A stretch of DNA of 64,000 bases, from NCBI RefSeq assembly GCF_017304615.1, contig NZ_JAFKLZ010000004.1, positions 124,001-188,000 on the forward strand, given 5' to 3'. The notes under the pieces are model-generated. The model searched no databases. It saw only the letters and a list, made by a program, of their open reading frames with translations, and was not told the DNA's origin. The DNA comes from Sphingomonas sp. GTDB taxonomy: Bacteria > Pseudomonadota > Alphaproteobacteria > Sphingomonadales > Sphingomonadaceae. Position 1 is the first letter of the stretch, and each line of letters opens with the position of its first letter. Shown here piece by piece: positions 10,993-31,952 of the stretch. The translations under genes and the position numbers were made by a program.

Positions 10993-12423
<1,431 letters not shown>

Positions 12424-12471
12424 CTACAATGTTCAAGCCGCCGGCTACGCGGCGCTTGCCCCTTTTTATGC

Positions 12472-12501
12472 GTGACAATATTGGTATGCAATACATACAA
12501 T
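12472..12501 (+). promoter_or_regulatory. purU promoter with GTATG-N5-CATAC operator
   Basis: GTGACA (12472-12477), 18 nt, then TACAAT (12496-12501) form a candidate promoter for purU. The perfect inverted repeat GTATG-CAATA-CATAC (12484-12498) covers the spacer and part of the -10, a typical repressor position. The same repeat stands upstream of the aldehyde dehydrogenase gene at 35993-36009. The MarR encoded at the end of the purU operon is the nearest candidate binder (inference). The site would also affect the divergent ligM. Confidence 0.6.
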
Positions 12502-12528
12502 ATTAAACGCTCTGGGGAAGATGACGAA

Positions 12529-13386: not shown

Positions 13387-13392
13387 TCCGTC

Positions 13393-15146: not shown

Positions 15147-15641
15147 TCAGATCGAATAGAAATCGACGACCGTGGGAATGGTATCGTTTAGCAGCACGAT
15201 TTTCTTAGCGGCGATCCGCCATGCGCCGCTCTCCATTCTTAGCCGATGCTGATAGCGGCCGAAAAAGGAATGGCTGCGCTCCGCGCGTACATCGTGCAAG
15301 TGCACGACGAAGGATGCGGTGACATCCGCCACTTCCGCACCGCTGCTCGAGACGACCACATTGCTGATGCAATGGACGCAGCGCGGTCTCGGCCTCGACG
15401 CGACCGATTGCCCGGATCTCGCACGGACGACACGATCCTCCAAACCGGTGCGGCCTTCGTAATAGATCAATGACAACTCTACGCCCGGGTCGGCGGTCAG
15501 CGTCTCCTCATCCCGCCAAGCGGGCATCCAGAATATCGCGTCGTGGGTGTAGAGATTGAGCCATTCGTCCCACCGCCCGTAGTCGAGCAGCGCGGCCTCA
15601 CGGTAGAGCAGGTCTTCCGCTTCGGCGCGGTTCAGCGTCAT
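15147..15641 (-). CDS. Aromatic ring-hydroxylating dioxygenase, beta subunit
   Basis: This 164-residue small subunit of a BenAB-type Rieske dioxygenase has a structural role in the hexameric oxygenase. Family features: AEDLLYREAALLDYGRWDEWLNLY (read as residues about 8-31), FWMPAW, SLIYYEGRTGLEDRV, SNVVV, and the C-terminal GRYQHRLRMESGAWRIAAKK. The start overlaps the alpha subunit stop as ATGA. It is the last gene of the receptor-TauD-ThDP-MFS-alpha-beta operon. Confidence 0.92.
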   Translation of the reverse strand: MTLNRAEAEDLLYREAALLDYGRWDEWLNLYTHDAIFWMPAWRDEETLTADPGVELSLIYYEGRTGLEDRVVRARSGQSVASRPRPRCVHCISNVVVSSSGAEVADVTASFVVHLHDVRAERSHSFFGRYQHRLRMESGAWRIAAKKIVLLNDTIPTVVDFYSI

Positions 15642-16990
15642 GGCCTCAATCCCTCGAGCACCGGGCCCAGCCGCCGAGCCCACTCGCGATAATAAGCGTG
15701 GTAAAGCGTCTCGTCGCACAGCTGCGAATCCGCGAGCACGCTGCGCGCCGGGGCGACGCCGATCGCATCGGACAACGGGTTGCCGCCTTCTCGGCTCGCC
15801 ATCATGCCGCGCGCATAGCCCTGCAGCCACGGATCAACCGGGCTCGCATGGCCGCGCTGGCAGCTTTCATAAGCTGTCGTGTCGTCGGGCGTGGCCATCC
15901 CGGAAGGATTGAAGAAATCCTCATACTGTCGGATCCGCTGGCGGCGTGCCGCGGCGCTTTCGCCTTTCGGCGCGATGCACCAGGTCCGCATCAGCGTGCG
16001 CCCGGACGCAAGCGGCTGGATGACTCGCAACTGGCTCGACGCATTTTCGGCGATCTGGAGGTTCGGGAAGATCGTCAGGTTGCGCATGTTGAACACCCAG
16101 TCGCGCCCCGCATCGCCGTGGCGCGCGCGGATCGCGTCGGCGCTTTCATGCAGCGGATGAGCCTCCGCGTCGCCGATACGCCCCCAGTTGAGCACGTGGC
16201 CGTGATCAAAACTGTAGCTGCCGCCCTGTACGCCCTCGGCATCTTCGCGCCACGCCTGTGATTCTTCCCAGATGGATCGCACGGCGGTCGCGCCTTCGCC
16301 GCACTGCCGACGTTCCATGATCTTTATGTAGGAGGGGTGCGTCGAGGTGAAGTGGTAGGCGTCCGAACAGTTTTCGAGCTGGAGTTTCCAATTTGCGTCA
16401 TAGGTGAAGCTTACCGCGCCGGGCACCAGCTCGATCCCCGCCTCGGGTTGGCCCACGACCAGGTCCAGGAAGTGCGCGGCCTCGCCGAGATGCTCCGCGA
16501 GCGGCGGGACGCCAGGCTCGAGACTGCCGAACAGGAACCCGGCATGTTCGGCAAAGTGCGGCAGCGCAGCGAGATCGTGACCGTCGCGGTCGAACGACTC
16601 GGTATAGCAACCCGCGCGCTGCCACTTGATCCCGCGGTTCCGGCCCGCGCTGTCGAATGTCCAGCTGTGGTACGGGCAGACGTGGAGACGAGAATTGCCC
16701 TGCTGCGTCTGGGCTACCTGCGCCCCTTTGTGGGGGCAGGAATTGACGAAGGCGCGCAACTGGCCGTCGCCGTCGCGCATCACCAGGATCGGGACCCTGC
16801 CCGCTCGCGTCGTGAAGAAATCATGCGCGGCGGGCGCTTGCGACGCGAGGCCGAGAAATACCCAGCCGCCCTCGAAAATGTGCTGCATCTCGAGTTCGAA
16901 CAGCTCAGGCTCGCGAAATATTGCGCGATTGACGCGGAACACGCCGTCGCCCGGACGATCGTCGATCAACCAGGACAAAGCGGCCGTCAC
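15638..16990 (-). CDS. Aromatic ring-hydroxylating dioxygenase, alpha subunit (benzoate/toluate type)
   Basis: The large subunit has 450 residues. The Rieske [2Fe-2S] site is CPHKGAQV ... CPYHSWTF, and the mononuclear iron site is ENCSDAYHFTSTHPSY (D-x2-H-x4-H). The C-terminal IAPKGES ... RIRQYEDFFNPSGMATPDD is characteristic of BenA/XylX/AntA enzymes, which make cis-diols from benzoate-like acids. The third iron ligand region reads IFPNLQIAENAS, so Glu (or Asn) appears where Asp is usual. The GTG start at 16990 overlaps the MFS stop. No ferredoxin, reductase or diol dehydrogenase gene is next to it, so electrons must come from elsewhere. Confidence 0.93.
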   Translation of the reverse strand: MTAALSWLIDDRPGDGVFRVNRAIFREPELFELEMQHIFEGGWVFLGLASQAPAAHDFFTTRAGRVPILVMRDGDGQLRAFVNSCPHKGAQVAQTQQGNSRLHVCPYHSWTFDSAGRNRGIKWQRAGCYTESFDRDGHDLAALPHFAEHAGFLFGSLEPGVPPLAEHLGEAAHFLDLVVGQPEAGIELVPGAVSFTYDANWKLQLENCSDAYHFTSTHPSYIKIMERRQCGEGATAVRSIWEESQAWREDAEGVQGGSYSFDHGHVLNWGRIGDAEAHPLHESADAIRARHGDAGRDWVFNMRNLTIFPNLQIAENASSQLRVIQPLASGRTLMRTWCIAPKGESAAARRQRIRQYEDFFNPSGMATPDDTTAYESCQRGHASPVDPWLQGYARGMMASREGGNPLSDAIGVAPARSVLADSQLCDETLYHAYYREWARRLGPVLEGLRP

Positions 16991-18291
16991 GCCGTGGCGC
17001 CTGTGGACTCGACCTCGCTTTGGGATACTGCGGCGGCGTAACGGCGTCCGGCTCGCCAGAAGCACATAGCGGCCAGCACTGGGGTTATGGCGATAAGCAA
17101 CATCGAATAGCGGATCGCTTCGTGGCCGAGGCGATCCTTGAGCAGATCGTTGACGATCCCGACCGCGGTCGGGCCGAGCGCATTGCCGATCAGACTGGCG
17201 CCGAGCAACACTACCGAGATGGCCAGTGCGCGGCGGCGTGGGCCAACGATCGTCACGACTGCGGCGAAGATCGGCGCCTGGTGGATCAACGTGAAGAAAC
17301 TGCTGATCGCAAAACCGCCTATCCAGGCGGCGTAGCTATTCCCCAGCAGGAACACGGCTTCCGCCGGGCCGGCCAGCAGGCAGGCGATCGCCGGAATGCC
17401 GATCCGCCAAAACGCGCGATCCTTGGGCAGTCGGTCGATCAGCGCGCCCCCCATCAGGATACCGGCAAGCCCGATCAACCCGCGCGTCGGGCCGACGATG
17501 TTCGCAACCTCGCTGACAGACAAATGATGGACCCGCACGAAAAAGGTCGGCGTCCACGCCCCCGCCGCCCAGACATTCGCCCCCATCAGTGTCACACCCG
17601 CGAAGATCCACGCAAAGCAGCGGTCGGAAAAAAGAGCGGCAAGATCTCCCCAAAGCGACCGCGCGAACGATAGGCGGGCTGGCGCCGGAGACATGCGCGG
17701 CGGTTCCTTGACGGTGAACATCGTCACCAGCGCGAGAATGACGCCCGGCAGTCCCATCACCACGAACATCGCGCGCCAGCCGTAGTGCTGGGCGATCCAC
17801 CCGGCGAGCGGGAAGAGGGCGATATAGGCAAGCGGCGCGGCGGCACCAAAGATGGCGAGCGCCAGCGGCCGGCGATCCGGCTTGAAAAGATCGGCAATGA
17901 TCGAGTTCGACGGCGCCATCCCGCACGCCTCTCCCGCGCCCATCAGCAACCGCACGGCGCCCAGCTGCCAGATCGTCGCGACGTAGCCGGTGAGCGCCGT
18001 CATCACGCTCCAGAACGCCAATCCGGCGGCTATGATGTTGCGCCGGTTCACGCGGTCCGCGAGCCAGGCGATCGGGATGCCGAGCGTCGAGTAAAAGAGG
18101 ATGAAGGCGAGGCCGGACACCAGGCCAAGCACCGTATCGGACGACCCCAGTTCTTTCTTGATCGCTGGCAGCGCGAGTCCGAGCAGCGAGCGGTCGAGGT
18201 AGTTGAAGACCGAAACGAACGTCAGCACGATCAGCGGCCATGTCGCCGGCCACGGCCAGGGCGACCGATCGGCGGCGCGTGCGTCGCTCAC
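16987..18291 (-). CDS. MFS transporter (Spinster-like)
   Basis: This 434-residue, 12-helix inner-membrane permease has FVSVFNYLDRSLLGLALP in helix 1 and the MFS loop ADRVNRRN between helices 2 and 3, with GAGEACGMAPSNSIIADLF in helix 4-5, as in Spinster-like carriers often found beside aromatic degradation genes. It has a GTG start overlapping the ThDP enzyme stop, and its own stop overlaps the Rieske alpha start. The cargo is probably the acid oxidised by the dioxygenase (inference). Confidence 0.88.
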   Translation of the reverse strand: MSDARAADRSPWPWPATWPLIVLTFVSVFNYLDRSLLGLALPAIKKELGSSDTVLGLVSGLAFILFYSTLGIPIAWLADRVNRRNIIAAGLAFWSVMTALTGYVATIWQLGAVRLLMGAGEACGMAPSNSIIADLFKPDRRPLALAIFGAAAPLAYIALFPLAGWIAQHYGWRAMFVVMGLPGVILALVTMFTVKEPPRMSPAPARLSFARSLWGDLAALFSDRCFAWIFAGVTLMGANVWAAGAWTPTFFVRVHHLSVSEVANIVGPTRGLIGLAGILMGGALIDRLPKDRAFWRIGIPAIACLLAGPAEAVFLLGNSYAAWIGGFAISSFFTLIHQAPIFAAVVTIVGPRRRALAISVVLLGASLIGNALGPTAVGIVNDLLKDRLGHEAIRYSMLLIAITPVLAAMCFWRAGRRYAAAVSQSEVESTGATA

Positions 18292-19916
18292 AGCCGCGAC
18301 GCCCGCGTTTCTTGTGCGGTGATGAATTCGAGTAGTGCCGGCTGGCCCGCCTCGGTCGCCGCTATACCGCGCCGTATCGCCGGGACAATCTCGTCGGGTT
18401 GGGAAATGCGCTCGCCATACCCCCCCATTGCCCTTGCAAACGCGGCATAGTCGCCCGAAATGTCCGTCGCGCGGAACCGGTCAGTGGCGACCGGCATGAT
18501 CGGCAACTCGATCGCCATGGCCGAGTTGTTGAGCAGGATCGACAGGATCGGCAAGCGCTCCCGCACGGCCGTCTCGAAATCCATTCCGGTAAAGCCGATC
18601 GCGGCATCGCCCCACACATTGATGCACAATTTGCCGGGACAGGCGAGCTTCGCCCCCATCGCCAGCCCTAGCCCGTAACCAAGCTGTGTCGATTTGCCCC
18701 AGCCGATATAGCTGAGCGGTGTCCGCGTCTTCCAATAGGGGGTCAACTGGTCGCGCGGAGAACCCGCGTCATGCGTGATGATCGTGTTGGCGACATCCAC
18801 CGTGTGCTGCAGGTCCCACAATACGCGATAGGGACTGAGCGGCGTGTCGTCGCTTTCGAGCAGCGGCAACCAGCCGGCAAGCCATTGCGCCTCGATCTCG
18901 GCGATCTCCGCCGCGACAGGCCCGGGATCGCGCGCGCTGGTCAACCGGTCACGGCATGCGTCGACCAGCATCGCCAGCGTCAGCCGCGCGTCCCCGATCA
19001 GCGCGTCGATGCACGGCACGCCCTTGTTGAGGTCCGCGGGGTCGAGCGTTGCGTGAACGATGTTCGCCCCCACCGGCATGGAGACCCCGAAAGCAGTCTC
19101 CGAAAAGCTGCAGCCGATGCCGAGGATGAGATCGGCCCGGTCGAGGAAGTGACGTAACTGGCCCGGAATCGCAGCCCCGCCGGATCCCAGCGCGAGGGGA
19201 TGCGTCTCATCGAACGCGCTCTTGCCCTCTAGGGTCGTGGAAACGGGCGCGGCGAGCAGCTCCGCGAGCACCCGCAGCTCGGCATAGGCCTCGGCCCAAT
19301 GTACGCCCTGCCCGGCATGAATGACGAGCCGTTTGGCCGCCACCAGGCGCTCGGCGACGCGCGCGATCGCGTCGGGATCGGGCGCGGTGCGCGTCGAGAC
19401 AACAGGCGTATAGGCCAGCGGCTCGGGCATGTCCTCCTCGAGCACATCCCACGGCATCTCGACGAGAGCGGGGCGCAACCGGCCGTTGCGCAGCGCGGTA
19501 AAGGCTCGACGCAGAATGGCGGGCGTTTCCGCAGCAAGCAGAATGGGCTCGGCTGTCTTGGTGATGTCGCGCATCGCGATGCAGGCGTTGTAATTGTCCG
19601 GCACATGAGCGATCCGCCGCGCATAGCCTTGCGGCAAGACCAGCACGGGCACGCTCTCGGAATAAGCCTGAGCCACCCCTCCGTACGCGTTTTCGGTTCC
19701 CGGCCCATGTTGCATGGCGAACACGCCCATGCGGCGGCCGCGCGTCATGCGCGAGAGGGCGTCCGCCATATGCAATCCGGTCCGTTCCTGCCGGACGATT
19801 ACCGTGCGGATACCGGCCGCGGCAGCCTGTTCGAGCACCGCGTTCCGCGGATAACCGAAGACGACGTCGATCCCCTCCAGCCTGAGGATTTCGGCAATCG
19901 CCGTGCTGACTTTCAT
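18288..19916 (-). CDS. Thiamine-diphosphate enzyme, acetolactate-synthase-like
   Basis: This 542-residue protein has the three-domain ThDP layout. The cofactor-activating Glu is E44 in VRQERTGLHMADA. The C-terminal Mg/ThDP motif starts at WGDAAIGFTG and ends at LLNNSAMAIE (GDx~27N). The middle domain contains GIGCSFSE, with no obvious FAD requirement. Similar proteins decarboxylate 2-oxo acids or cleave or carboligate them; the substrate is not recognisable, and the glyoxylate carboligase, oxalyl-CoA and sulfoacetaldehyde types do not fit clearly. It is coupled by ATGA to the TauD-like gene and by GTGA to the MFS. Confidence 0.85.
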   Translation of the reverse strand: MKVSTAIAEILRLEGIDVVFGYPRNAVLEQAAAAGIRTVIVRQERTGLHMADALSRMTRGRRMGVFAMQHGPGTENAYGGVAQAYSESVPVLVLPQGYARRIAHVPDNYNACIAMRDITKTAEPILLAAETPAILRRAFTALRNGRLRPALVEMPWDVLEEDMPEPLAYTPVVSTRTAPDPDAIARVAERLVAAKRLVIHAGQGVHWAEAYAELRVLAELLAAPVSTTLEGKSAFDETHPLALGSGGAAIPGQLRHFLDRADLILGIGCSFSETAFGVSMPVGANIVHATLDPADLNKGVPCIDALIGDARLTLAMLVDACRDRLTSARDPGPVAAEIAEIEAQWLAGWLPLLESDDTPLSPYRVLWDLQHTVDVANTIITHDAGSPRDQLTPYWKTRTPLSYIGWGKSTQLGYGLGLAMGAKLACPGKLCINVWGDAAIGFTGMDFETAVRERLPILSILLNNSAMAIELPIMPVATDRFRATDISGDYAAFARAMGGYGERISQPDEIVPAIRRGIAATEAGQPALLEFITAQETRASRL

Positions 19917-20869
19917 GACCCGGCCGCGTCTCCGGGGCCGAGCGGCCGCTCTCCCACCACCGTGGTGCGGATCAAATGGCGACGCTCATACTTGAAATCG
20001 TGAATGCCGCGATGCAGCGTGAAGCGATTGTCCCACACGAGCAGCGTATCCTTATGCCACTTCACGCGGCAGTGATAATGGAGGTGCTGTGCCAGACTCT
20101 GCAGGTAGGCCAACAGCGCGCGGCTCTCCTCCTCGCTCCAGCCGACGAAGTGTTTGAAATAGGCGGTCGTCGCGAACAGAGCCTTACGCCCCGTAACGGG
20201 ATGAGTGCGGACCGCCGGATGAATATTCTCTAGCTGATCCTCCGCGAAATCGTGGCTCTCCCGCAGCCGCAGCCGCTTTTCCGGCGCGAGCTTTTCGTTT
20301 TTCGACCAGATGTCCTTGCCCGAATAGACAACCTGCAGCCCGTCGAGCAGCGCCTTCATCCCCGATGAAAGGTTTTCATAGACCAGATAAGCATTGGAAA
20401 AGGCGGTATCGCCCCCCCATTGCGGCACTTCCAATGCGCGCATCACTATGCATTTGGGCGGGCGCAGGAGGAACGGGCTGTCGGTGTGGAAGTGTTCGAA
20501 CGAGGGCACGACATTTTCCGGTTCGTGCGCCTCCCGACGAACCTCCTGCATGTCGCGGTGACCGTCATAGATCGGCGCTTGCGGCAACTCGGTGAGTTCC
20601 CCGAAATGCCGCGAAAAGGCCTTATGCTGCTCCGGCGTCAAATCCTGATCGCGAAACACGATGACGAGAAAATGCTCGAATGCCTTCATGATCTCGGCGA
20701 GCACCTCGGGGTCGAGATCCCCACGCAGATCGACCCCGCTGATCTCGCAGCCGCAAGCGCCGGAAATAGGCGTGACTCCGATCCGATGAAACTCGGGCAT
20801 CGGCAGCCCGGCGACTATCGGTTGCCCGGCCGGGTCCCTGGGTTCGACGAGGTTCGGCTGACTGGCCAC
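19913..20869 (-). CDS. TauD/TfdA-family Fe(II)/2-oxoglutarate dioxygenase
   Basis: This 318-residue enzyme has the iron triad visible as HFHTDSPF (His and Asp) and TLHRGIHDF (distal His), with the 2-oxoglutarate Arg in RRHLIRTTV. Members hydroxylate next to a heteroatom, releasing sulfite, phenol or an aldehyde from taurine-, aryloxyacetate- or ether-like substrates. In this operon an aryl ether or aryloxy-acid would make sense, but that is inference. GTG start with AGGAA 5 nt upstream; 72 nt after the receptor gene and overlapping the ThDP gene. Confidence 0.9.
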   Translation of the reverse strand: MASQPNLVEPRDPAGQPIVAGLPMPEFHRIGVTPISGACGCEISGVDLRGDLDPEVLAEIMKAFEHFLVIVFRDQDLTPEQHKAFSRHFGELTELPQAPIYDGHRDMQEVRREAHEPENVVPSFEHFHTDSPFLLRPPKCIVMRALEVPQWGGDTAFSNAYLVYENLSSGMKALLDGLQVVYSGKDIWSKNEKLAPEKRLRLRESHDFAEDQLENIHPAVRTHPVTGRKALFATTAYFKHFVGWSEEESRALLAYLQSLAQHLHYHCRVKWHKDTLLVWDNRFTLHRGIHDFKYERRHLIRTTVVGERPLGPGDAAGS

Positions 20870-20941
20870 GAAAGTTCCTTACAAAATGAACTGAGGCGGT
20901 AGCCGGAGACGGCTTGCGGCCACCTCCGGCATCCCCCTGGA

Positions 20942-23404
20942 TCAGAAGTTGCGCTTCAGCGTCACCGCCCAGGTCCGCGGTTCGCCAGGCGATCCCTGGA
21001 TCGAGTTGGTCGAACCACGATTGTCGAAAATGTCGGTGTAATAGAGTTTGTTGGTCGCGTTGCGGACTTCGCCGGAAATCTCCCAATCACCGTTGGACGT
21101 CGCATAGGTGAGTCGGAGATTCAGCAGCGTTCGCCCAGGGACGAGTCCGAAAATATCGCGCCCCCCGGTCGCCGCGTCGACGTTGTTGGAGTTGCGGTTG
21201 AACGCATCCTCGTGCGCGACGTCGAAGCGCGGCGTCAGCGTTCCCGCCGAGCCGAGCTCGATCTTATACTGGGCGCTCACGCTCCATTGCCACGGTGAAA
21301 TATAGACGCCCTTGTCCTCAAGCCCGATGCCGGAACTGGCCGCGATCGCGCTGATCGATGTGTACCTGAAGTAAAGATACGCGAGCGAGGCGTCGATCGA
21401 CAGGCCCCGCAACGGACGGAGCGACAGCTCGGCTTCGAAGCCTTTGACGTCGGCCTTGCCGGCATTGAGCGGCAGTGCGCATGGCGTAACCGGCGCAAAC
21501 GGGCAGCTCGAAACCGAGACGAGGATGTTGTCGTATTTGTTGATGAAAGCCGATGCGTTGAGGCGAAGCATGCGATCGAACAAGTCGCTTTTGAAACCCG
21601 CCTCATACGCCGTCAGCGTTTCCGCCTGGTGCGGCAGCGCCTGCGCGGGGAAGAACGGACGGGGATTGATCCCGCCCCCTTTGAAACCCGTCGAAATCTG
21701 GCCGTAGACCATCAGCTCGCTGCTAGGCCTGAATTGAACGGCGCCGCGATAGTCGAAGCGATCGCCGGCATATTTCCCGACCAGGCCGTTCAGCGAAGCG
21801 AGTGACGGCGGCACCGCGCCACCCGAGGAGGAGCCCGGCACGCCGAGGCGTCCGTAGATGAAGCTCTTGGTCTGATCCGTGTACCGCAATCCGCCGATCA
21901 AGGTCACCTGCGGAATCGGTGTCAATTCGGCGTTGATGAACCCCGCCTTTGTCCGGGCCGGCACCGAATTGTCCTCGATGAAGTCGAGCGTCGTCAGCGT
22001 GACGCGCGACCGGTTGCGGCTGCGCTTGTCGAAGTAGAAGCCGCCGACGGTAACGTTCAGGATGTCGCCGATCGCGGCGGTCAGACGTACTTCCTGGCTG
22101 AACTGTCGGTTATAGATCGCGTTGGCCTGAATCGTGGGGCTGAGCGGCGATCCGTCGCCCGACGTATAGACGCCGTCGAACTTGCGATAGGCGGTGATCG
22201 AGGTCAGCGTGACCTTATCGGCGAGTTCCGCAGTGATTGTCCCCGCTACGCCCCAACTGTTGATCGACGCCCTGTTGGGCGCGGCCCACGGCGCGGAACC
22301 GTCACGCGGCGCAAGGTTCGTGTTGTTCTCGTAATTGACGTACGGGCTGTTGGTATAGGTATCTTGCGCGTACGGGCCGAACGGCGAATAGCTGATAAAG
22401 GGCGATCCGGTCGCCGTGCCATAAACGTTGCCATTAAGGACGTACGGCGCGGCAACGGGCGTTGCGACGCCGGTCAGTGTCGAACCGGGCGCAGCGTTGC
22501 GGCCGACATAGAGCAATGTCGTCGGCCCGTCCTCGCTGGAGTCTCGAGTCACGTCACCCGTCAGATCCACAGTGATCCGCGAGGTTGGCAGCCAGCGCAG
22601 CGCTAGACGGCCGGCCACGTAATCCTTACCGCCCTGCGTCCCCAGCTTGCAGCCGTTGCCGACGACCGAACTAGGCACCGTCGAACCGGGATGCGTGCAC
22701 GCATAGTCGAGCCGCGTGACGTACCCGTCCTTGCGCACACCAGCACCCGATAGCCTGGCGAACAGCTGGTCAGGGATGAGCGTGATGTTGGTCGCGCCGC
22801 GAATCTCGACCCGGTTATAACTACCGTACGTCGCCGACAGAAAACCGTCGGTGCTGCCGTCCGGCTTCTTCGAATAGAGCTTGATCGCGCCACCGATCGA
22901 ATTCTGGCCTGCCAACGTACCCTGGGGGCCGCGCAGGATTTCAACGCGCTCCAGATCGAGCAAGTTGAGCATCGAGCCGTGCAAGGTCGGAAGATAAACG
23001 TCATCGACATAGATGCCGACGCCGGGTTCAAGTGCAAAGGTCGTGTCGCGTTGACCGACGCCGCGGATATAGGCGACGACCGACGGTCCATAGGTGGCCG
23101 AGGCCGCGCGCAACGTGACGTTCGGCGCGTAGCCGCCCAGATCGGCGACGGTGATCTGCCCGCGCTCGCTGAGCTGCTCCCCGCTCATGGCGGTGATCGC
23201 GATCGGAACGTCCTGAAGCTTTTGACCGCGAAACTGCGCGGTGACGACAATATCATCGCCCTGCGGGCTATTGTCCGTCGTCGTTGCGGTGGTCGTGGTG
23301 GCCTGGCCGTCAGACTGCGCGGCGGCAGGCGCCGCGATCCCCAGCGCGCCCGCGATCGCCACGAGTGAAGTGGCGGCGTTCAATCGGCTAAAACTTAGCG
23401 CCAT
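20942..23404 (-). CDS. TonB-dependent outer-membrane receptor, copy 2
   Basis: This 820-residue receptor has a signal peptide starting MALSFSRLNAATSL and ending in AAPAAAQ. The plug carries DIVVTAQFRGQKLQDVPIAI, YIRGVGQRDTTFALEPGVG and RVEILRGPQGTLAGQNSIGG; the barrel ends in VTLKRNF with terminal Phe. The ATG at 23404 has GGAGGAAG upstream; the longer reading upstream runs through the promoter. It is the first gene of the six-gene operon ending in the Rieske beta subunit and very likely imports its aromatic substrate. It is only distantly similar to receptor copy 1. Confidence 0.93.
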   Translation of the reverse strand: MALSFSRLNAATSLVAIAGALGIAAPAAAQSDGQATTTTATTTDNSPQGDDIVVTAQFRGQKLQDVPIAITAMSGEQLSERGQITVADLGGYAPNVTLRAASATYGPSVVAYIRGVGQRDTTFALEPGVGIYVDDVYLPTLHGSMLNLLDLERVEILRGPQGTLAGQNSIGGAIKLYSKKPDGSTDGFLSATYGSYNRVEIRGATNITLIPDQLFARLSGAGVRKDGYVTRLDYACTHPGSTVPSSVVGNGCKLGTQGGKDYVAGRLALRWLPTSRITVDLTGDVTRDSSEDGPTTLLYVGRNAAPGSTLTGVATPVAAPYVLNGNVYGTATGSPFISYSPFGPYAQDTYTNSPYVNYENNTNLAPRDGSAPWAAPNRASINSWGVAGTITAELADKVTLTSITAYRKFDGVYTSGDGSPLSPTIQANAIYNRQFSQEVRLTAAIGDILNVTVGGFYFDKRSRNRSRVTLTTLDFIEDNSVPARTKAGFINAELTPIPQVTLIGGLRYTDQTKSFIYGRLGVPGSSSGGAVPPSLASLNGLVGKYAGDRFDYRGAVQFRPSSELMVYGQISTGFKGGGINPRPFFPAQALPHQAETLTAYEAGFKSDLFDRMLRLNASAFINKYDNILVSVSSCPFAPVTPCALPLNAGKADVKGFEAELSLRPLRGLSIDASLAYLYFRYTSISAIAASSGIGLEDKGVYISPWQWSVSAQYKIELGSAGTLTPRFDVAHEDAFNRNSNNVDAATGGRDIFGLVPGRTLLNLRLTYATSNGDWEISGEVRNATNKLYYTDIFDNRGSTNSIQGSPGEPRTWAVTLKRNF

Positions 23405-23450
23405 AATCTTCCTCCCCAACGCCGCCCGTTTTTCCGGTGCGGTCGACGCT

Positions 23451-23479
23451 ATCAAAGATGTTGATCAATCAACTGTCAA
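23451..23479 (-). promoter_or_regulatory. Receptor-operon promoter with a MarR-type operator in its spacer
   Basis: On the minus strand TTGACA (23479 to 23474), exactly 17 nt, then TTTGAT (23456 to 23451) form a good sigma-70-type promoter 47 nt before the receptor start. The perfect inverted repeat GTTGAT-CA-ATCAAC (23460-23473) fills the spacer, so a bound protein would block the polymerase. The same palindrome recurs at 24335, 28796 and 31881. Confidence 0.7.
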
Positions 23480-23483
23480 TGCG

Positions 23484-23521
23484 TTTCCGCAGGGTGGAAC
23501 TGTTATTCCGTATTACGGAAT
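23484..23521. promoter_or_regulatory. Tandem IclR-type operators upstream of the receptor-operon -35
   Basis: Two sites lie 21 bp apart, two helical turns: TTTCCG-CAGGG-TGGAAC (23484-23500, one arm mismatch) and ATTCCG-TATTA-CGGAAT (23505-23521, whose palindrome extends inward to give 8-bp arms). Their centres lie about 48 and 69 bp upstream of the expected transcription start, a usual place for IclR activators. The IclR gene 2 stop codon is 25 nt away. Confidence 0.65.
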
Positions 23522-23546
23522 TGGGTACGGCGCAGCGCCGTCGTTG

Positions 23547-24317
23547 TTAGCTGTGTGAGATGGCCGCCATCTCGGTAAGCTTCTGTGCCGCGTCGCGGAC
23601 CGAGAGCGCGAGATCGTCCTCGAGATGTCGCTGATACCGTTTGGACGGCATCGTGAGGCCCAAGCAGCCCAGAATCCCCCTGTCGGCGTCGAATATCGGC
23701 GCGGCCATGCCGGCAATATCGTAGCGAGGATCGTAGTAGCGGGCGAAACCACGCTCCCGAACCAGCTCCAGTTCCTTGTGCAATTCGCTTCGTGTCGAAC
23801 GCGGCCTCCCTGTGAGCGGACCGACGGTGCACTCGCGCAACACGATTTCGATCTCGCCTTCGGAGAGAAAGGCCAGGATTGCGTGCCCCAGCGATCCCCA
23901 GGGCAGCGAAATCTCCACGCCGCGCTCGACCGCGAAGCGAAGCGGATTCGGCGTAATCGCGACGTCCGCGATCGTCGCCGTGCGGGATACCGGGCTGTAG
24001 AGGCAGAGCACAGCCGTTTCCTGCCACTGGGAAACCAATGCTTCGAGGAATGGGCGGGCGCTACGCACCAGATCGAACGCGGCGACAAGCTGCGACGCGA
24101 GCCGATGAAGTTCCCGCCCCGGGCGGTAGCTTTGGCCTCCCCCGCGTTCGACGAACCCGGAACGCAAGAATACTTGAAGCAGGCGATGCACGGAACTTAG
24201 CGGAAGATCGGCACGCGCCGCCAGTTCGCCGAGCGAAAACTGGGGAGCCCCGCTGGCGATCAACTTCAGCAGATAGACCAGCCGGTCTCCGGAGCCGCGC
24301 GGCGCTTTCGATGTCAT
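23547..24317 (-). CDS. IclR-family transcriptional regulator 2
   Basis: This 256-residue regulator has a winged helix (FSLGELAARADLPLSSVHRL) followed by the effector domain (LPWGSLGHAILAFLSEGE, RGFARYYDPRYDIAGMAAPI). It lies just upstream of, and in the same direction as, the receptor-Rieske operon and probably controls it. The ATG at 24317 was preferred over one at 24353 because the GTTGAT-AA-ATCAAC palindrome (24335-24348) would otherwise lie inside the gene. The Shine-Dalgarno is weak (TTGGA). Confidence 0.9.
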   Translation of the reverse strand: MTSKAPRGSGDRLVYLLKLIASGAPQFSLGELAARADLPLSSVHRLLQVFLRSGFVERGGGQSYRPGRELHRLASQLVAAFDLVRSARPFLEALVSQWQETAVLCLYSPVSRTATIADVAITPNPLRFAVERGVEISLPWGSLGHAILAFLSEGEIEIVLRECTVGPLTGRPRSTRSELHKELELVRERGFARYYDPRYDIAGMAAPIFDADRGILGCLGLTMPSKRYQRHLEDDLALSVRDAAQKLTEMAAISHS

Positions 24318-24334
24318 TCGCGTCCAATTCCGGT

Positions 24335-24348
24335 GTTGATAAATCAAC
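24335..24348. promoter_or_regulatory. GTTGAT-AA-ATCAAC palindrome between iclR 2 and the SnoaL-like gene
   Basis: A perfect 6-bp-arm inverted repeat lies 17 nt before the iclR gene 2 start (minus) and 49 nt before the SnoaL-like gene (plus). It can serve both divergent units and belongs to the same operator family as 23460, 28796 and 31881. Confidence 0.6.
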
Positions 24349-24397
24349 GTCATTGCCCGATGGTGGCCGAACCACAAGCGGGAGGATGCGCGGCAAT

Positions 24398-24808
24398 ATG
24401 TCGCACGCGGGCATGTTCGAGCAATATATGGCGGCATTCAACGCCGGCGATGCCGATCGGTACGCCCGCTTCTACGCGCCGCAAATCCGCTTCCGCAACG
24501 GCGCCAGCACCGAGCTGGTCGGTCCGGCGGCGATCGTCGACTATTACCGATCGTTCGCCGGACGGATGTCGCGCGTCATCGAGGTGCGCGCGGTTGCCTG
24601 GGGCGAACGGGCATTCGCCGCGGCGCTGGCGTCACGCTTCACGGTGCTCGCGGACAAGGTGCCTTTTGGGGGGGGAATGCTCGGCGCCGGGGATCGGGTC
24701 CACCTCGAAAGCATGGCTCTTTATGAACTCGATGGTGCGCAATTCGCCCGCATCGAAGCCACCACGCTGACCCGTCGCATCGAACGCCGGGAGGAGACAA
24801 GCCAATGA
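24398..24808 (+). CDS. SnoaL-like (NTF2-fold) protein
   Basis: This 136-residue protein has the NTF2/SnoaL cone fold: FEQYMAAFNAGDADRYARFY at the N-terminus, then GPAAIVDYYRSF, and a C-terminal beta-sheet segment. Proteins of this fold are small cofactor-free lyases, isomerases or cyclases. Sphingomonad enzymes that remove formaldehyde from diarylpropane or phenylcoumaran lignin dimers to give stilbenes belong to the same superfamily, which is suggestive beside a lignostilbene dioxygenase, but I see no direct proof. The ATG at 24398 has GGAGG 12 nt upstream; an in-frame ATG at 24386 abuts that GGAGG. The stop overlaps the MFS start as ATGA. Confidence 0.75.
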   Translation: MSHAGMFEQYMAAFNAGDADRYARFYAPQIRFRNGASTELVGPAAIVDYYRSFAGRMSRVIEVRAVAWGERAFAAALASRFTVLADKVPFGGGMLGAGDRVHLESMALYELDGAQFARIEATTLTRRIERREETSQ

Positions 24809-26163
24809 TCGCGCCACCGCAGGAGCCCCCCAGTGCGGCCGTCCACCGCACCAAGGCCATGGTATTCATGCTGTTCGCCGTGTGCGCAATGAACTTTGCG
24901 GATCGAGCGGTTTTTTCGGCGCTCGCGCAAACGATCAAGGCCGACCTGCGGTTGAGCGACCTTGAACTTGGCCTGCTGCAGGGGCTGGTTTTCGCATTGC
25001 TCTATGCGTTGGTCGGTTTGCCGATCGGGCTTCTTGCCGAACGCCACTCGCGAAAGCGCATCGTCGCCGCGGCGACGGCGATATGGTCCGCGGCGACGCT
25101 CGCCACCGGCCTCGCGACCAATTTCCTGCAGCTCGCGGCGAGCCGGTTGATCGTCGGAATGGGCGAAGCCGGGTTCACGCCCTGCGCCGCCTCCATGGTG
25201 GGTGATGTCGCGCCGCGCGATAAGCGTGCGTCGACCATGTCGCTGGTGCTACTGGGGACTCCGGTCGGCATTTTCGCGGGTGCGACGATAGCGGGACTGA
25301 TCGCGGCAAGCTGGGGCTGGCGCGCCGCTTTCGTCGCGTTCAGCATTCCCGGCCTTATTATCGCCGCGCTGTTCCTGCTCATCGTGGAAGAACCGCATCG
25401 CGGGATGACGGACAATACCGCCGCGCCAGAGAGCGCGCCGCCGATCGGCACATTCCTGGCGACTGTAGCGGGAAACCGATCGCTGGTCTGGGTCATCGCA
25501 GGCGGCAGCCTTGCCGGATTCGGCATGACCTCTATCTCGCAATTCCTGGCGGTGTTCCTCGCCCGCGCACACGGCCTTGGCGTCCGCGAAGCCGCAGCGA
25601 CGTTCGGGTCGGTATCGGGAATATCGATTGCGCTCGGGCTGTTGGTCGGCAGCTTCGGGACCGACTATCTCTCCCGCCGCGATCCGCGCTGGCCGGCCTG
25701 GGGAGCAGCGATCGGCCTCGTGTGCGCGCCACCCATCTATCTGGCGGCGTTCCACGCCGGTTCGCTGTCGGTTTCGATTGCACTCCTGCTCTTGGCCGGT
25801 TCGTTCCTCCTGATGTTTTTCGGCCCCACCGCGGGCATGATCCAGAACCTGTTGCCGCCACGGATGCGCGCCAGCGGGGTGGCGCTCTACACCCTGCTGT
25901 ACACGCTCATCGGTTCAGGTCTCGGGCCGGTTTTCGTCGGGGGAATGAGCGACCTGTTCGCCGCGCGAGCCTATGGCACCAGCTACACCATCGATTGTCC
26001 GCATGGCCTTGCGCCTGCGGGCGCACTCGCCGAACGGGCCGCGTCATGCGCTGCCGCGTCGGCCTCAGGCATACAAATGGCGCTTTCGCTGGCGGTATTG
26101 TCGCTCTTCGTGGCGGGGGCCTGCTTCCTGCTTGCCGCGCCGGGGCTGAAACGCAGCGCGTGA
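24805..26163 (+). CDS. MFS transporter (Spinster-like), second copy of this type
   Basis: This 452-residue permease has about 12 membrane segments. Helix 1 reads FAVCAMNFADRAVFSALAQ, the signature loop is AERHSRKR, and RLIVGMGEAGFTPCAASMVG marks helices 4-5. A periplasmic or cytoplasmic loop near residues 395-425 contains three Cys. It is translationally coupled to the SnoaL-like gene, so both probably serve one substrate. It ends 8 nt before the convergent DUF3237 gene. Confidence 0.88.
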   Translation: MIAPPQEPPSAAVHRTKAMVFMLFAVCAMNFADRAVFSALAQTIKADLRLSDLELGLLQGLVFALLYALVGLPIGLLAERHSRKRIVAAATAIWSAATLATGLATNFLQLAASRLIVGMGEAGFTPCAASMVGDVAPRDKRASTMSLVLLGTPVGIFAGATIAGLIAASWGWRAAFVAFSIPGLIIAALFLLIVEEPHRGMTDNTAAPESAPPIGTFLATVAGNRSLVWVIAGGSLAGFGMTSISQFLAVFLARAHGLGVREAAATFGSVSGISIALGLLVGSFGTDYLSRRDPRWPAWGAAIGLVCAPPIYLAAFHAGSLSVSIALLLLAGSFLLMFFGPTAGMIQNLLPPRMRASGVALYTLLYTLIGSGLGPVFVGGMSDLFAARAYGTSYTIDCPHGLAPAGALAERAASCAAASASGIQMALSLAVLSLFVAGACFLLAAPGLKRSA

Positions 26164-26171
26164 ACTCGGAC

Positions 26172-26621
26172 TCAAACCAACGCGTAGTAGCGGAACAGTG
26201 AGCGGTCCGGACCCGTCAGCCGCTCGCCCCCGCCGACGATCACTGTACGCGACAGCCAGTCGTGCGGCCCGGCGGGAACGCGAAAATAGGGGGTCAGACG
26301 GAAATAGGAAGGCTGTGGTTCACCCGGCTTAGGCCTGATTAGATAGCCCCGATTCTGAATGTAGATCTTCGTCCCGTCTTCAGCCTGGAGCAGATAGTGG
26401 GCGCTCAACTCGATCGTGCCGTCGTCGCGCACCAGCGCATAGTCCGCCCCGCTGTGCGGCACCACGGTTCCCGACAGCCGCGGCCCGCTGATCTTCCCGC
26501 CGATCGCCGGCGTATAGCCCTGACTCCCGCCACCGGGCAGCGGCCCGAAAATCTCGCGATCCGCGCCGAACAAAACTTCGATGTCGAACACATGCTCGAG
26601 GCGACAATCGGCTGGACTCAT
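26172..26621 (-). CDS. DUF3237 protein A
   Basis: This 149-residue protein belongs to the DUF3237 family, a beta-barrel of unknown function. Conserved stretches: HVFDIEVLFG, GGKISGPRLSGTVVPHSGAD, LSAHYLLQAEDGTKIYIQNRG and VPAGPHDWLSRTVIVG. The start overlaps the hydrolase stop as ATGA. It is the third gene of a DUF3237-hydrolase-DUF3237 operon and is clearly related to protein B (28290-28772), which shares the motif order but has an insertion after the NRGY segment. Confidence 0.85.
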   Translation of the reverse strand: MSPADCRLEHVFDIEVLFGADREIFGPLPGGGSQGYTPAIGGKISGPRLSGTVVPHSGADYALVRDDGTIELSAHYLLQAEDGTKIYIQNRGYLIRPKPGEPQPSYFRLTPYFRVPAGPHDWLSRTVIVGGGERLTGPDRSLFRYYALV

Positions 26622-28285
26622 GTCTGGTCCTCCCTGGGCGGAACGAAGGGCAGCAGGATCGACGAATCGAACACGCCCCCGGTGCGAATGATGTGGGTGC
26701 CCGCGTTGCGGGTCTGTTCGTGCATCGGGAAGGGCAGGAACACCCCCTCCTCCTTGCGATAGATGTCGTGCCCCGCCACGATCAGCCGCAGCGTCTCCCC
26801 CGCGGAGAAGCGCGCCGAGAAAGGCCAGATCTCGATCTCCACCAACACGCACGCGCCCGGCTCCAGCCGCTCCTCGTACGTATGCAGATGAACCGGCTGT
26901 TCGGGCCGCGATCGCGCCGGATCGAGCGCCCGATGGCTCACCCGCTGCCAGCCGAGCGCCACGGGCCCGTTTTCGTAGAACGCGTAGAAGGTGAAGCCGA
27001 CATGCCCGCCCGCGGTATTGATCTTTTGGAGCGCCACGAACAGGTCGACATCGTCGCTGCCATCGGCCTCAACCCACAAGCGCAGGCTGGCATGGCCGGT
27101 GATTTCGGTGTCAGTATCGAAGCTCAGGTCGAACGCCACGCTTCCCGTCTCCGCCGGATAACGCGCCTCCGCCTCGGCCGGTTCGCGGGCGGTCAGCGCC
27201 CCGTTCGCCGCGTCGAGCGCCAGCCGCCGGTAATCGGTGCGCGCAATCGGCCATTCCCGCTCGGCCCGTTCCTCGGCGACGCCGTGCCGCTCGCGCACTT
27301 CGATCCGCACCTTTGGCCAGGCGGGCAAAGACGTCGGCCGGTCGCGCAGGTAATGGTCGAAAAAGGCGAGCTGACGCTTGCGGCTTTCGGAGCGGTAATA
27401 ATGCGCCCATTTCTTCTGGCCGTGGATCTCCAGCCATTTCTCCGCCGACCCCATCCGCCGGTATGCCTCGATCGTTCCGCGCAGGTGCAGCCCCTGATCG
27501 GACCAACTCGCCACGACATAGGCCGGCTGGCGGATCGCCTCGAGATCGAACTCCTTCGAACGCCAATAATCGTCGATAAGTTGGTGCGCGTTGATGTTCG
27601 CCCAGCTGTCTTCGGTGCGGTGAAGCGACCATTGGATGTTGTCGCACGCGCGCGGCAGGAAACTCGTTTCCAGGATGCCGCCATGATAGGCGAACTCGCG
27701 GTACCAGTCCGAAAACGCTTCCCATGGATTGAGCGCGGCGAGCGGACCGGGCCTGAGCGGTGCGACCAGATACTGGATGCCGGCGAGGTAGGATACGCCG
27801 CTTATCCCCACGCGCCCGTTCGCCCAGGGCAGCCGCCCCAGCCATTCGATCGCGTCGGCGCAATCCTCGGCCTCCTGGGAGCCGTTGTGATGAAAGTCCC
27901 CGCCCGACAGCCATGCACCGCGCGGATCGACTACGGCGACGGCAAAGCCCTGCTCGCCCCACCATACCGGATCAGGCGCCTCGAACGCGGTCAGGTCCGA
28001 CAGCCAATCGGGGTCCACCCCCGACCGCGGCCAGAACACCCTGTCGGTCAGCGCGTGCTTGCCATAGGGGCCCCAGGCCAGCAGCAGCGGCACGCCGGAC
28101 ATGGCGTTTTCGGGGCGGTAGACGTCGCACAGCAACTCAACCCCGTCGCGCAGCGGAATGCGGCAATTGCGTTCGATGATCAGCCCGCGTTCGACGCGGC
28201 GGTGATAATCCGCGGGCGGCAGCGGCGGCTTGGTCGGGTGGGTGTACGGGTCGGTTCCCGCGCGCATCGACGGCTGGAAGCGCAT
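26618..28285 (-). CDS. CocE/NonD-family serine hydrolase
   Basis: This 555-residue alpha/beta hydrolase has the CocE/X-Pro peptidase layout. The N-terminal catalytic domain has VYRPEN, GPYGKHAL and the nucleophile loop VGISGVSYLAG; Asp is probably in WSDQGLH and His in KKWAHYY. The C-terminal jelly-roll domain begins near residue 370. Family members cleave esters, amides or acyl-peptide bonds. There is no obvious signal peptide, so it is probably cytoplasmic. The ATG at 28285 follows the DUF3237 B stop by 4 nt. Sandwiched between two DUF3237 genes, it may hydrolyse an ester or lactone made or bound by them. Confidence 0.85.
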   Translation of the reverse strand: MRFQPSMRAGTDPYTHPTKPPLPPADYHRRVERGLIIERNCRIPLRDGVELLCDVYRPENAMSGVPLLLAWGPYGKHALTDRVFWPRSGVDPDWLSDLTAFEAPDPVWWGEQGFAVAVVDPRGAWLSGGDFHHNGSQEAEDCADAIEWLGRLPWANGRVGISGVSYLAGIQYLVAPLRPGPLAALNPWEAFSDWYREFAYHGGILETSFLPRACDNIQWSLHRTEDSWANINAHQLIDDYWRSKEFDLEAIRQPAYVVASWSDQGLHLRGTIEAYRRMGSAEKWLEIHGQKKWAHYYRSESRKRQLAFFDHYLRDRPTSLPAWPKVRIEVRERHGVAEERAEREWPIARTDYRRLALDAANGALTAREPAEAEARYPAETGSVAFDLSFDTDTEITGHASLRLWVEADGSDDVDLFVALQKINTAGGHVGFTFYAFYENGPVALGWQRVSHRALDPARSRPEQPVHLHTYEERLEPGACVLVEIEIWPFSARFSAGETLRLIVAGHDIYRKEEGVFLPFPMHEQTRNAGTHIIRTGGVFDSSILLPFVPPREDQT

Positions 28286-28289
28286 CCCC

Positions 28290-28772
28290 CTATTCCACGA
28301 CGAAATAATGGATCCGGTTGGCGCCAGGCGTCTTTTCCGCGACGCCGACAAACACATGCTGAGACAGCCATTCGTGAGGGCCGGCGGGCGCGTCGAAACG
28401 CGGGGTTACGCGCATATAATAGTCGCCGAACTCGACTGGTTCGTTGCGGCGCATCTTTTCGGCGATCTCCGGACTGCGCGCCCAGCGATACCCGCGATTT
28501 TCCAGGTAGATGATTGCGCCGTCATCCGCCTCCAGCAAGTATCGCGCGTCGAAATCTATCACGCCGTTGGGACGCGACAGCGGAAAGTCACCGCCCGACA
28601 TCGGTACGACGCGCCCGTTCAGCCGGGGGCCTTCAACTACCCCTTCCGCGGCGTAGATTGCCGCCCGCATGTCGCCCCGCACGGCAGGTTTCACCCAATA
28701 TGGCTTGGACAGGACGATCGAGATGGTGAAGGCATGGCTGAGGCCTGGCGTAAAAGGATGTTGTCCGCTCAT
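28290..28772 (-). CDS. DUF3237 protein B
   Basis: This 160-residue second DUF3237 protein shows GVVEGPRLNGRVVPMSGGDF, DFDARYLLEADDGAIIYLEN and DAPAGPHEWLSQHVFVGVAE. Compared with protein A it has an extra charged stretch (EIAEKMRRNEP). The ATG at 28772 has no evident Shine-Dalgarno, so the message may be leaderless or start slightly downstream. It is the first gene of the operon; a GTTGAT-type palindrome lies 24 nt upstream. Confidence 0.85.
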   Translation of the reverse strand: MSGQHPFTPGLSHAFTISIVLSKPYWVKPAVRGDMRAAIYAAEGVVEGPRLNGRVVPMSGGDFPLSRPNGVIDFDARYLLEADDGAIIYLENRGYRWARSPEIAEKMRRNEPVEFGDYYMRVTPRFDAPAGPHEWLSQHVFVGVAEKTPGANRIHYFVVE

Positions 28773-28795
28773 GGATTAGGGTAGAAGCGGATATA

Positions 28796-28809
28796 GTTGA
28801 TTTGTCAAC
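28796..28809. promoter_or_regulatory. GTTGAT-TT-GTCAAC palindrome between the DUF3237 operon and marR 2
   Basis: Arms GTTGA and TCAAC match perfectly. On the minus strand TTGACA (28808 to 28803) inside the palindrome could be the -35 of the DUF3237 operon, so binding would repress it. The divergent marR gene starts 60 nt away, which fits autoregulation by that MarR. Confidence 0.6.
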
Positions 28810-28869
28810 ATCTACTGCCAACAGCTGCATAGTCGAGACAGATCGGGCCGGGGGAATTAGAAGGGCAGG

Positions 28870-29379
28870 ATGAACAGCATCAGATCGCGCGCGGCCGCAC
28901 CTCTTGAAGAGCCGAATCCAAAGAGGTTCGTATTCGGACCGTCGCAAATCCCCTACCGCATATTATTGCTGTCCAAGATGATCGATCGGGTCACTGCGCA
29001 GCACGTTCGCGACACAGCCGAACTGACGCTCGCGCAATGGCGCGTGCTGACGCATGTTGAGATGATGGGCAAATGCAGCGCCGCGGAAGTGGCGAGCGCC
29101 GCCTATTCGGACCGCGCGGAAGTGAGCCGTGCGATTGCGGCGCTGGAGGAGCGTGGACTGGTTCACCGCGAAAGCAATCCGCGCAACCGCAAGAGCAGTC
29201 TGGTTTCGCTGACCACCGAAGGTCGCGCGATCCACGCGAGCGTCCGCGGAGAGCGCGGGAAGTTCTATGAGCAATGGTTGACCGACCTGAACTCCGAAGA
29301 GCGTGTCGCGCTCGACGCGGGCCTGGAGAAGATCACCGGGCGGATCGTGCTTAGCGCACCCGAAATGTTCGACCTTTAA
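28870..29379 (+). CDS. MarR-family regulator 2
   Basis: This 169-residue protein has the MarR winged helix: LTLAQWRVLTHVEMMGK, SAAEVASAAYSDRAEVSRAI (recognition helix), then the wing ESNPRNRKSSLVSLT. GGGCAGG directly precedes the ATG. It is divergent from the DUF3237 operon with a palindromic site between them and convergent with the PanE-like gene. It is my favoured binder for all four GTTGAT-N2-ATCAAC sites, because MarR dimers commonly bind such short-spacer palindromes (inference). Confidence 0.92.
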   Translation: MNSIRSRAAAPLEEPNPKRFVFGPSQIPYRILLLSKMIDRVTAQHVRDTAELTLAQWRVLTHVEMMGKCSAAEVASAAYSDRAEVSRAIAALEERGLVHRESNPRNRKSSLVSLTTEGRAIHASVRGERGKFYEQWLTDLNSEERVALDAGLEKITGRIVLSAPEMFDL

Positions 29380-29387
29380 TACCGCGA

Positions 29388-30311
29388 TCAGGCCAACCCG
29401 ATGCTGGCTTCGATGATCCGGACCAGATCGCTAAGCGTGTCGCAGACCGGCGTCGGCACGCCCGCTCGTCCGCCTTCCGCGGCGATGGCGCCGTTGATCG
29501 CTTCGATTTCGCTGCGCCGCCGCGCTTCCCTGTCCTGTAGCATCGACGCCTTGTGGCCGCCATGCTCGCGCAACGCAGCGTCGATCTGCGCAAGCACGGC
29601 GTCGCGATCGAGCGCGAGGCCTTTGGCGGCAGCGACAGAAGCGGTTTCATCGACGACGGCGCTGGCGATTCGACGTCCCGGTTGGTTGTCGATCCCTGCG
29701 TTCGTCACCTGACAGATCATCCCGACGGCATTCAGCGCAGCGTTGAACGCCAGCTTCTCCCACATCGCCACGGCGACTTGCGGGTGCCGGTGCACCGCGA
29801 AGCGGGCCCGAGCGAGCAAATCGGCGACTGCCGCAAAATGATCGCGGTCGGTGCCGTCGAATGTCCCGATCTGCAGACTGGCGAAACCGCTGGTGCTGAC
29901 CGAACGGGCATCGGTCAGATCCGCTGGAATGACCGCGGTGCCCATTAACACGCGGGCGGCGTCGAACGCGTCCGCCAGCAATTCGGCATTGCCGATCCCG
30001 TTTTGCAGCGTCAGCGCGATGGGTCGGAAGCGTCGCAGATGCGCCACCGACGCAAGCGCGCCTGCGCTATGCATCGCCTTGGTGAAGAGGATTACCAGAT
30101 CGACGGGTCCGGGGACGTCCACTGCGCGCGCCGCTCTGACACGCACCGTGCGGCTGCCGCCGTCATCAGTGAACGCGATACCTTGGGCGGCGAGCGCGGC
30201 GAGCCGGTCTTCATCGACATCCACCACGGTAACGTCGGCGCCCGCTTCGCTCAGCCGCGCGGCAAACAGGCAGCCCATCGCACCCGCGCCGATGATCGCG
30301 ACCGATCGCAC
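29388..30311 (-). CDS. Ketopantoate reductase-like (ApbA/PanE) dehydrogenase
   Basis: This 307-residue NADPH enzyme has AIIGAGAMGCLFAARLSEAG at the N-terminus, TKAMHSAGA, LQNGIGNAELLAD, the catalytic Lys in WEKLAFNAALNAV, and the C-terminal substrate segment KASMLQDREARRRSEIEAIN. PanE-family proteins reduce 2-oxo acids. Next to a benzoylformate-decarboxylase-like gene a substrate other than ketopantoate is likely. A GTG start at 30311 was chosen; TTG at 30320 (GAGG 9 nt upstream, overlapping the preceding stop as TTGA) is a real alternative. Confidence 0.85.
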   Translation of the reverse strand: MRSVAIIGAGAMGCLFAARLSEAGADVTVVDVDEDRLAALAAQGIAFTDDGGSRTVRVRAARAVDVPGPVDLVILFTKAMHSAGALASVAHLRRFRPIALTLQNGIGNAELLADAFDAARVLMGTAVIPADLTDARSVSTSGFASLQIGTFDGTDRDHFAAVADLLARARFAVHRHPQVAVAMWEKLAFNAALNAVGMICQVTNAGIDNQPGRRIASAVVDETASVAAAKGLALDRDAVLAQIDAALREHGGHKASMLQDREARRRSEIEAINGAIAAEGGRAGVPTPVCDTLSDLVRIIEASIGLA

Positions 30312-30316
30312 GCGAC

Positions 30317-31867: not shown

Positions 31868-31880
31868 GGGCCGCACTTTA

Positions 31881-31910
31881 GTTGATTTATCAATACATGC
31901 TAGATATGTT
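31881..31910. promoter_or_regulatory. GTTGAT-TT-ATCAAT operator and promoter of the stilbene dioxygenase gene
   Basis: The palindrome at 31881-31894 has perfect TTGAT/ATCAA arms. On the plus strand TTGATT (31882-31887), 17 nt, then TATGTT (31905-31910) form a candidate promoter for the dioxygenase, with its -35 inside the palindrome. A weaker repeat GTTG-N5-CAAC follows at 31908-31920. The benzoylformate-decarboxylase-like gene starts 14 nt away on the other strand, so both are probably controlled here. Confidence 0.6.
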
Positions 31911-31952
31911 GATCTGCAACGGCGTTTGTCGGCGCACATCAGCGAGGTCCGA

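Follow-up and report, generated by a model that had tools for sequence, protein, structure and literature searches.

Paired IclR-type sites and a MarR-type spacer palindrome in the predicted promoter of a TonB receptor operon of Sphingomonas sp.

Gene cluster and promoter architecture

The window considered here, the whole 64,000-nucleotide stretch of Sphingomonas sp. DNA that was analysed, contains a cluster in which the gene for a TonB-dependent receptor (TBDR2; 20942–23404, minus strand; Pfam Plug and beta-barrel domains) is followed on the same strand by genes for a TauD-type dioxygenase, a TPP enzyme, an MFS transporter, and the alpha and beta subunits of a Rieske oxygenase (15147–20869). 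Their close same-strand spacing suggests that 15147–23404 is one operon, of which the receptor gene would be the first. A LigM-type O-demethylase and a lignostilbene dioxygenase encoded in the cluster both score above the NCBIfam cut-off, and the Rieske oxygenase is nearest to benzoate dioxygenase but below the cut-off for benzoate dioxygenase; given these three enzymes, regulatory ligands of stilbene or lignin type are a reasonable guess. LigM adjoins PurU-like and FolD-like genes (10993–14253), and these genes, named by eye, would make up a set for O-demethylation that recycles its own tetrahydrofolate. Regulators encoded in the window include MarR2 (28870–29379, plus strand; Pfam MarR), IclR2 (23547–24317, minus strand; Pfam HTH_IclR and IclR_C), and IclR1 (10048–10845).

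Direct reading of the minus strand before the receptor gene gives TTGACA-N17-TTTGAT with GTTGATTGATCAAC inside the spacer, as the original prediction had stated. The −35 hexamer TTGACA (23474–23479, read 23479 to 23474) is followed directly by this palindrome (23460–23473, read 23473 to 23460), which occupies 14 of the 17 spacer bases, and TTTGAT (23451–23456, read 23456 to 23451) would serve as a poor −10 element. The two TTCCG-N5-CGGAA-type repeats that had been proposed upstream of the −35 element are likewise present, with starts 21 bp apart: the distal palindrome (23506–23520) is perfect, and the proximal one (23485–23499; one mismatch) ends 5 bp before the −35 hexamer, so that the minus-strand order is distal TTCCGTAATACGGAA, 6 bp, proximal TTCCACCCTGCGGAA, 5 bp, TTGACA, GTTGATTGATCAAC, and TTTGAT. 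Measured from a transcription start that is only projected, at 23444, the two sites are centred at about −69 and −48. The two hexamers probably constitute the core promoter of the receptor operon itself; a sigma-70 consensus scan called no promoter at TTGACA-N17-TTTGAT.

Palindromes like that in the spacer recur in the cluster. A second perfect copy (24335–24348), which the original prediction overlooked, lies directly before IclR2, between it and the divergent SnoaL/MFS genes, so that IclR2 may itself be under the control of MarR2. Copies with one mismatch to GTTGATNNATCAAC are found between MarR2 and the DUF3237 gene (28796–28809; an exact GTTGA-N4-TCAAC) and between the lignostilbene dioxygenase and TPP enzyme genes (31881–31894). 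All three are kept in Sphingomonas caeni. As expected of a MarR-repressed promoter, the receptor palindrome lies within the predicted core promoter and a candidate operator is present at the promoter of MarR2 itself. The lignostilbene dioxygenase promoter (31870–31956) reads TTGATT-N17-TATGTT with the MarR-type palindrome over the −35 element and spacer, in a block that is identical in S. caeni.

Rarity and conservation of the sites

Both site types are rare in the 3.34 Mb genome. Exact GTTGATNNATCAAC occurs twice (window positions 23460 and 24335), both times in this cluster, and the reversed control does not occur; at one mismatch or fewer there are six matches, four of them within 8.4 kb (window positions 23460–31894), and at two or fewer there are 56, vs. 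22 for the control. The looser GTTGA-N4-TCAAC is found three times in the genome, always in this cluster (control, 1), and three times in the 4.1 Mb of S. caeni (control, 0), where one copy precedes MarR2, another precedes IclR2, and the third is part of the receptor promoter. Perfect TTCCG-N5-CGGAA has six matches (control, 2), of which three lie in the window, all of them intergenic provided that the ATG at 7701 is the start codon of the MmgE gene. The 36-bp pair with 21 bp spacing is unique in this genome at three mismatches or fewer (1 match; control, 0), and over 14 genomes the same search returned 22 matches vs. 7 for the control.

Receptor promoters were compared across relatives beginning with a search of 397 genomes of the family, 13 of which contained an IclR2 match at E ≤ 1e-45, giving 15 loci including the present one; S. 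caeni LB-2 (86% identity) was added from a separate scan. Twelve of the 15 family loci together with S. caeni supplied 13 receptor promoters beside IclR2 orthologs of 45–100% identity. Those left out had no receptor gene downstream (L031 and L073) or a receptor gene that was not directly downstream (L033); L040 (25% identity) was not used, and L038 and L039 were not counted beside G115:C5 and G032:C14.

The distal IclR palindrome is present at no more than one mismatch in 13/13 of these promoters, and the proximal one at 0–3 mismatches in 12/13, having been lost (7 mismatches) in genome G235; the pair at 21 bp is accordingly found in 12 of the 13. The spacer palindrome is all-or-none: it is exact in seven promoters, starting directly after the −35 hexamer in six and one base later in G195, and it stands at 6–7 mismatches in the other six. 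In each of genomes G069 and G193, one promoter has it and another lacks it. On a protein tree of IclR2, promoters with and without the MarR operator are mixed; the middle of this tree is unresolved and three branches are open, so that only the mixing is put forward and no history of gain or loss is claimed.

The gene order from the aldehyde dehydrogenase through LigM is kept in S. caeni, and neither IclR1 nor the genes beyond it had an ortholog in the stretch of that genome examined. Across four intergenic regions aligned between the two genomes, the MarR-type palindromes lie inside blocks of 15–24 identical bases, and the IclR sites vary at some inner bases. The sites are thus conserved, keep a constant spacing, and co-occur with two types of regulator.

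Regulator assignment and alternative modes of control

A MarR repressor with its operator in the spacer would ordinarily be read as blocking the promoter, and the spacer palindrome is probably bound by MarR2, because GTTGA-N4-TCAAC tracks MarR2-type genes. Within 230 nt upstream of 24 MarR2-type loci, this motif is found at one mismatch or fewer in 13 (8 of them exact), at two mismatches in 4, and not at all in 7 including G195; random stretches of equal length contain it at one mismatch or fewer in 1.6% (window) to 5.6% (loci examined) of cases, the latter background coming from loci that are themselves enriched in sites. The 24 loci are related to one another, and binomial values for the upstream palindrome are therefore descriptive only. 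A MarR2 relative (E ≤ 1e-15, 36–100% identity) occurs in 7/7 genomes with the spacer palindrome, and none was found in G114. The association is incomplete in both directions: G115, G032, and G235 (a distant relative, 30% identity) have a MarR2 relative and lack the spacer palindrome, and 11/24 MarR2-type genes lack the motif upstream at one mismatch or fewer, including that of G195, yet the receptor promoter of G195 contains the palindrome. Elsewhere, an exact GTTGA-N4-TCAAC adjoins DUF3237 relatives in three other genomes (L042, L045, and L102), with a SnoaL relative on its other side in L042 and L045, so that the MarR2-type regulon seems, by gene neighbourhood, to follow DUF3237/SnoaL relatives.

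The upstream pair, for its part, tracks IclR2 orthologs, which makes IclR2 the likely binder of its TTCCG-N5-CGGAA sites. Taken together, these assignments describe a composite promoter, blocked by MarR2 and activated by IclR2, which we consider the best account of the sequence data and hold with moderate confidence. A MarR2 dimer on the spacer palindrome would keep RNA polymerase off the −35 and −10 elements of the receptor/TauD/TPP/MFS/Rieske operon, and IclR2, most likely as two dimers bound to the same side of the helix, would occupy the pair (centres at about −48 and −69) and recruit polymerase to this promoter, whose −35 element is good and whose −10 element is poor. Full expression would then require both that MarR2 be released by its ligand and that IclR2 be present and active. 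The dual control by a MarR-type and an IclR-type protein that had been proposed at the outset is therefore likely, its binders being well supported by the comparison of relatives; the sign of IclR2 action, for which the evidence is geometric, and the AND logic are well-motivated predictions.

MarR2 would have three further targets: the promoter of its own gene, that of the lignostilbene dioxygenase gene, and the site immediately before IclR2. The operon and IclR2 each have a candidate operator, in this genome as in S. caeni, which suggests a coherent feed-forward loop in which MarR2 blocks IclR2 and the operon and IclR2 activates the operon; since a perfect MarR-type site stands just before IclR2, the two signals may not be independent. 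They may amount to one signal with a delay or, if IclR2 has a ligand of its own, to a true two-input gate. The site at 24335 is common to the divergent SnoaL/MFS pair, which it also faces, and the step from MarR2 to IclR2 is for this reason uncertain. In the 300 nt before IclR2, GTTGA-N4-TCAAC occurs at one mismatch or fewer in 5/16 loci, namely the present one and S. caeni (both exact), G069-C4, G193-C200, and G115, the last of which is without the spacer palindrome. An exact site in G381 and G319 heads a row of same-strand genes leading to IclR2, probably as one transcript, and in the stretch examined of G195 no operator was seen before IclR2 or at the head of the gene row leading there.

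The same distribution of MarR-type operators, at four intergenic regions including that before IclR2, means that one ligand could open everything, and in Sphingobium sp. SYK-6 a receptor gene is under the control of DdvR alone (PMC6874591, in the portion available). MarR2 by itself might thus set induction, with the IclR pair as a constant helper site and an operon that needs a single signal. Such an arrangement is possible but rather doubtful: IclR2 has a full IclR_C ligand-binding domain, and the pair is kept in promoters that lack the MarR operator, where IclR2 must be the regulator.

That IclR2 is an activator of the receptor operon is quite probable from the geometry of the promoters. A TTGA hexamer follows the pair by 5–6 bp in 13/13 receptor promoters, in a count whose script favoured placements with TTGA; a fair test is therefore provided by the 22 pair matches over 14 genomes, which were collected without regard to the −35 element. 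Seventeen of the 22 lie at IclR2 relatives or their targets and, with G115 added by hand, make 18 rows and 17 different sequences, and the five away from IclR2 relatives serve as controls, of which three are readable. The distance between the pair and TTGA is exactly 5 or 6 bp in 16/17 different sequences (the exception being the second pair of G235) and in 0/3 readable chance matches. The G069-C9 pair, which is among the 16, is directed toward a TauD-type gene instead of a receptor. The sites are therefore placed as in activator-dependent sigma-70 promoters, at a constant distance from the −35 element, and an activator that touches polymerase requires just such an invariant, non-overlapping placement, which favours activation.

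IclR2-type pairs are also found between IclR2 relatives and a divergent gene at L031 and L073 (G144 and G392) and at L028 and L029 (G069-C9 and G193-C150); here too, 6 bp separate the pair from TTGA. The divergent gene of G069-C9 is identified as TauD-type by tblastn, and those of G144 and G392 were so classed by eye.

Many IclR-family proteins are repressors, among them PheR of Sphingobium (PMC13273656, in the portion available). Both regulators might accordingly repress, IclR2 on the pair hindering polymerase at the −35 and its upstream element while MarR2 blocks the spacer, an arrangement of two locks with one or two keys. This is unlikely, because the pair ends at a constant 5–6 bp before the −35 hexamer without overlapping it, whereas PheR covers −21 to +23 (PMC13273656, same portion). 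Moreover, a repressing IclR2 that was itself repressed by MarR2 would presumably work against induction.

The choice between the two IclR proteins named in the original prediction, IclR1 and IclR2, falls to IclR2. The recognition helix of IclR1 is similar to that of IclR2 and a perfect TTCCG-N5-CGGAA precedes the gene of IclR1 at 10923, so that IclR1 could act at the pair by itself or jointly with IclR2. For the remaining 11 of the 12 genomes searched, however, matching to IclR1 at E ≤ 1e-25 returned nothing but the IclR2 orthologs, and the pair is conserved there; a role for IclR1 at the pair is improbable, and as main binder it is unnecessary. IclR-type palindromes upstream of IclR1 (10923–10937), of the MmgE/PrpD gene (7609–7623), and of a second TonB receptor (5343–5357; one mismatch) possibly belong to a separate IclR1 regulon in the same window.

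An origin of the sites as chance palindromes is scarcely credible and was rejected: TTCCG-N5-CGGAA at two mismatches or fewer is no commoner in the window than chance (44 vs. 48.8 expected), but the genome-wide rarity and clustering of the sites, the counts of the pair against its control, and conservation in 13 promoters all oppose it.

The composite promoter of MarR2 and IclR2 may accordingly be viewed as a natural AND gate within a feed-forward loop, in which the MarR spacer operator is gained or lost as a separate cassette on a constant IclR-activated receptor promoter, a view to which we give about an even chance. The IclR pair and −35 element are constant and the MarR operator is either complete or missing altogether, with both states within G069 and within G193, where like promoters with and without the block would have been left in one genome. 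If so, the locus would be a compact, sequence-defined case of an existing promoter that acquires a second input. The arrangement further predicts how, in some sphingomonads, an outer-membrane receptor is linked to a pathway that includes a lignostilbene dioxygenase, and a two-input sensor could be built from the promoter parts.

Relationship to known regulatory systems

The closest likenesses for the MarR side come from other sphingomonads, in each case as described in the available portions of the articles. DdvR of Sphingobium sp. SYK-6 is a MarR-type repressor of a TonB receptor gene and lignin-aromatic catabolic genes (ddvT, ligXa), as proposed here for MarR2, but the text on that system mentions no IclR protein, unlike the present promoter (PMC6874591). 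DesR of the same strain is of MarR type, is autoregulated, and has an inverted repeat that overlaps the ligM −35 element, all of which is alike; its repeat, GTTTGTGTAACATAC, differs, and no IclR protein appears in the DesR text (PMC6888825). Saro_0803 of Novosphingobium aromaticivorans is a MarR-like repressor of the gene nov1 for a stilbene-cleaving enzyme, with an operator near the −10 box (PMC10046596), and MarR2 likewise has a candidate operator at a lignostilbene dioxygenase gene. The Saro_0803 operator GCAATA-N6-TATTGC differs from the MarR2-type palindrome (PMC10046596), and MarR2 falls outside the Saro_0803 family (NF053777), scoring 34.9 bits against an NCBIfam cut-off of 200.

For the IclR side, available portions of a survey give the group 1 operator consensus of the family as GKTYCRYW3-4RYGRAMC and report tandem sites in 94 orthologous groups with 18–22 nt between centres (PMC8222616). 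The 21 bp spacing of the present pair, next to its regulator gene, lies within that range, and in the same portions no promoter shared by group 1 with a MarR protein was found (PMC8222616). By eye, the distal site fits this consensus except at the outer G and C, which are A and T here, and the proximal site fits more weakly. Among activators, PbaR of Sphingobium is reportedly of the IclR family and XylS belongs to the AraC/XylS family. XylS at Pm is a likeness in working only, with two activator repeats stacked upstream of the −35 element and the nearer one essential; it differs in that these are direct repeats and the nearer one overlaps the −35 element by two bases (PMC4225500, in part). PheR of Sphingobium sp. 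SHPJ-2 is likewise a sphingomonad protein of the IclR family that regulates an aromatic ring-hydroxylating cluster; it differs in acting as a repressor, with a GCAACG core and a footprint that spans −21 to +23 (PMC13273656, in part). AcsR, a MarR protein of Corynebacterium whose deletion raises the IclR gene genR, was set aside as a precedent, the article reporting in its available portion that AcsR failed to bind the genR promoter (PMC13118786).

Titles and the beginnings of abstracts in the open-access literature, from which subscription papers are mostly absent, yielded no receptor promoter with both an IclR and a MarR protein. Each part of the present promoter is thus of a known kind, and their combination appears new within the open-access literature searched.
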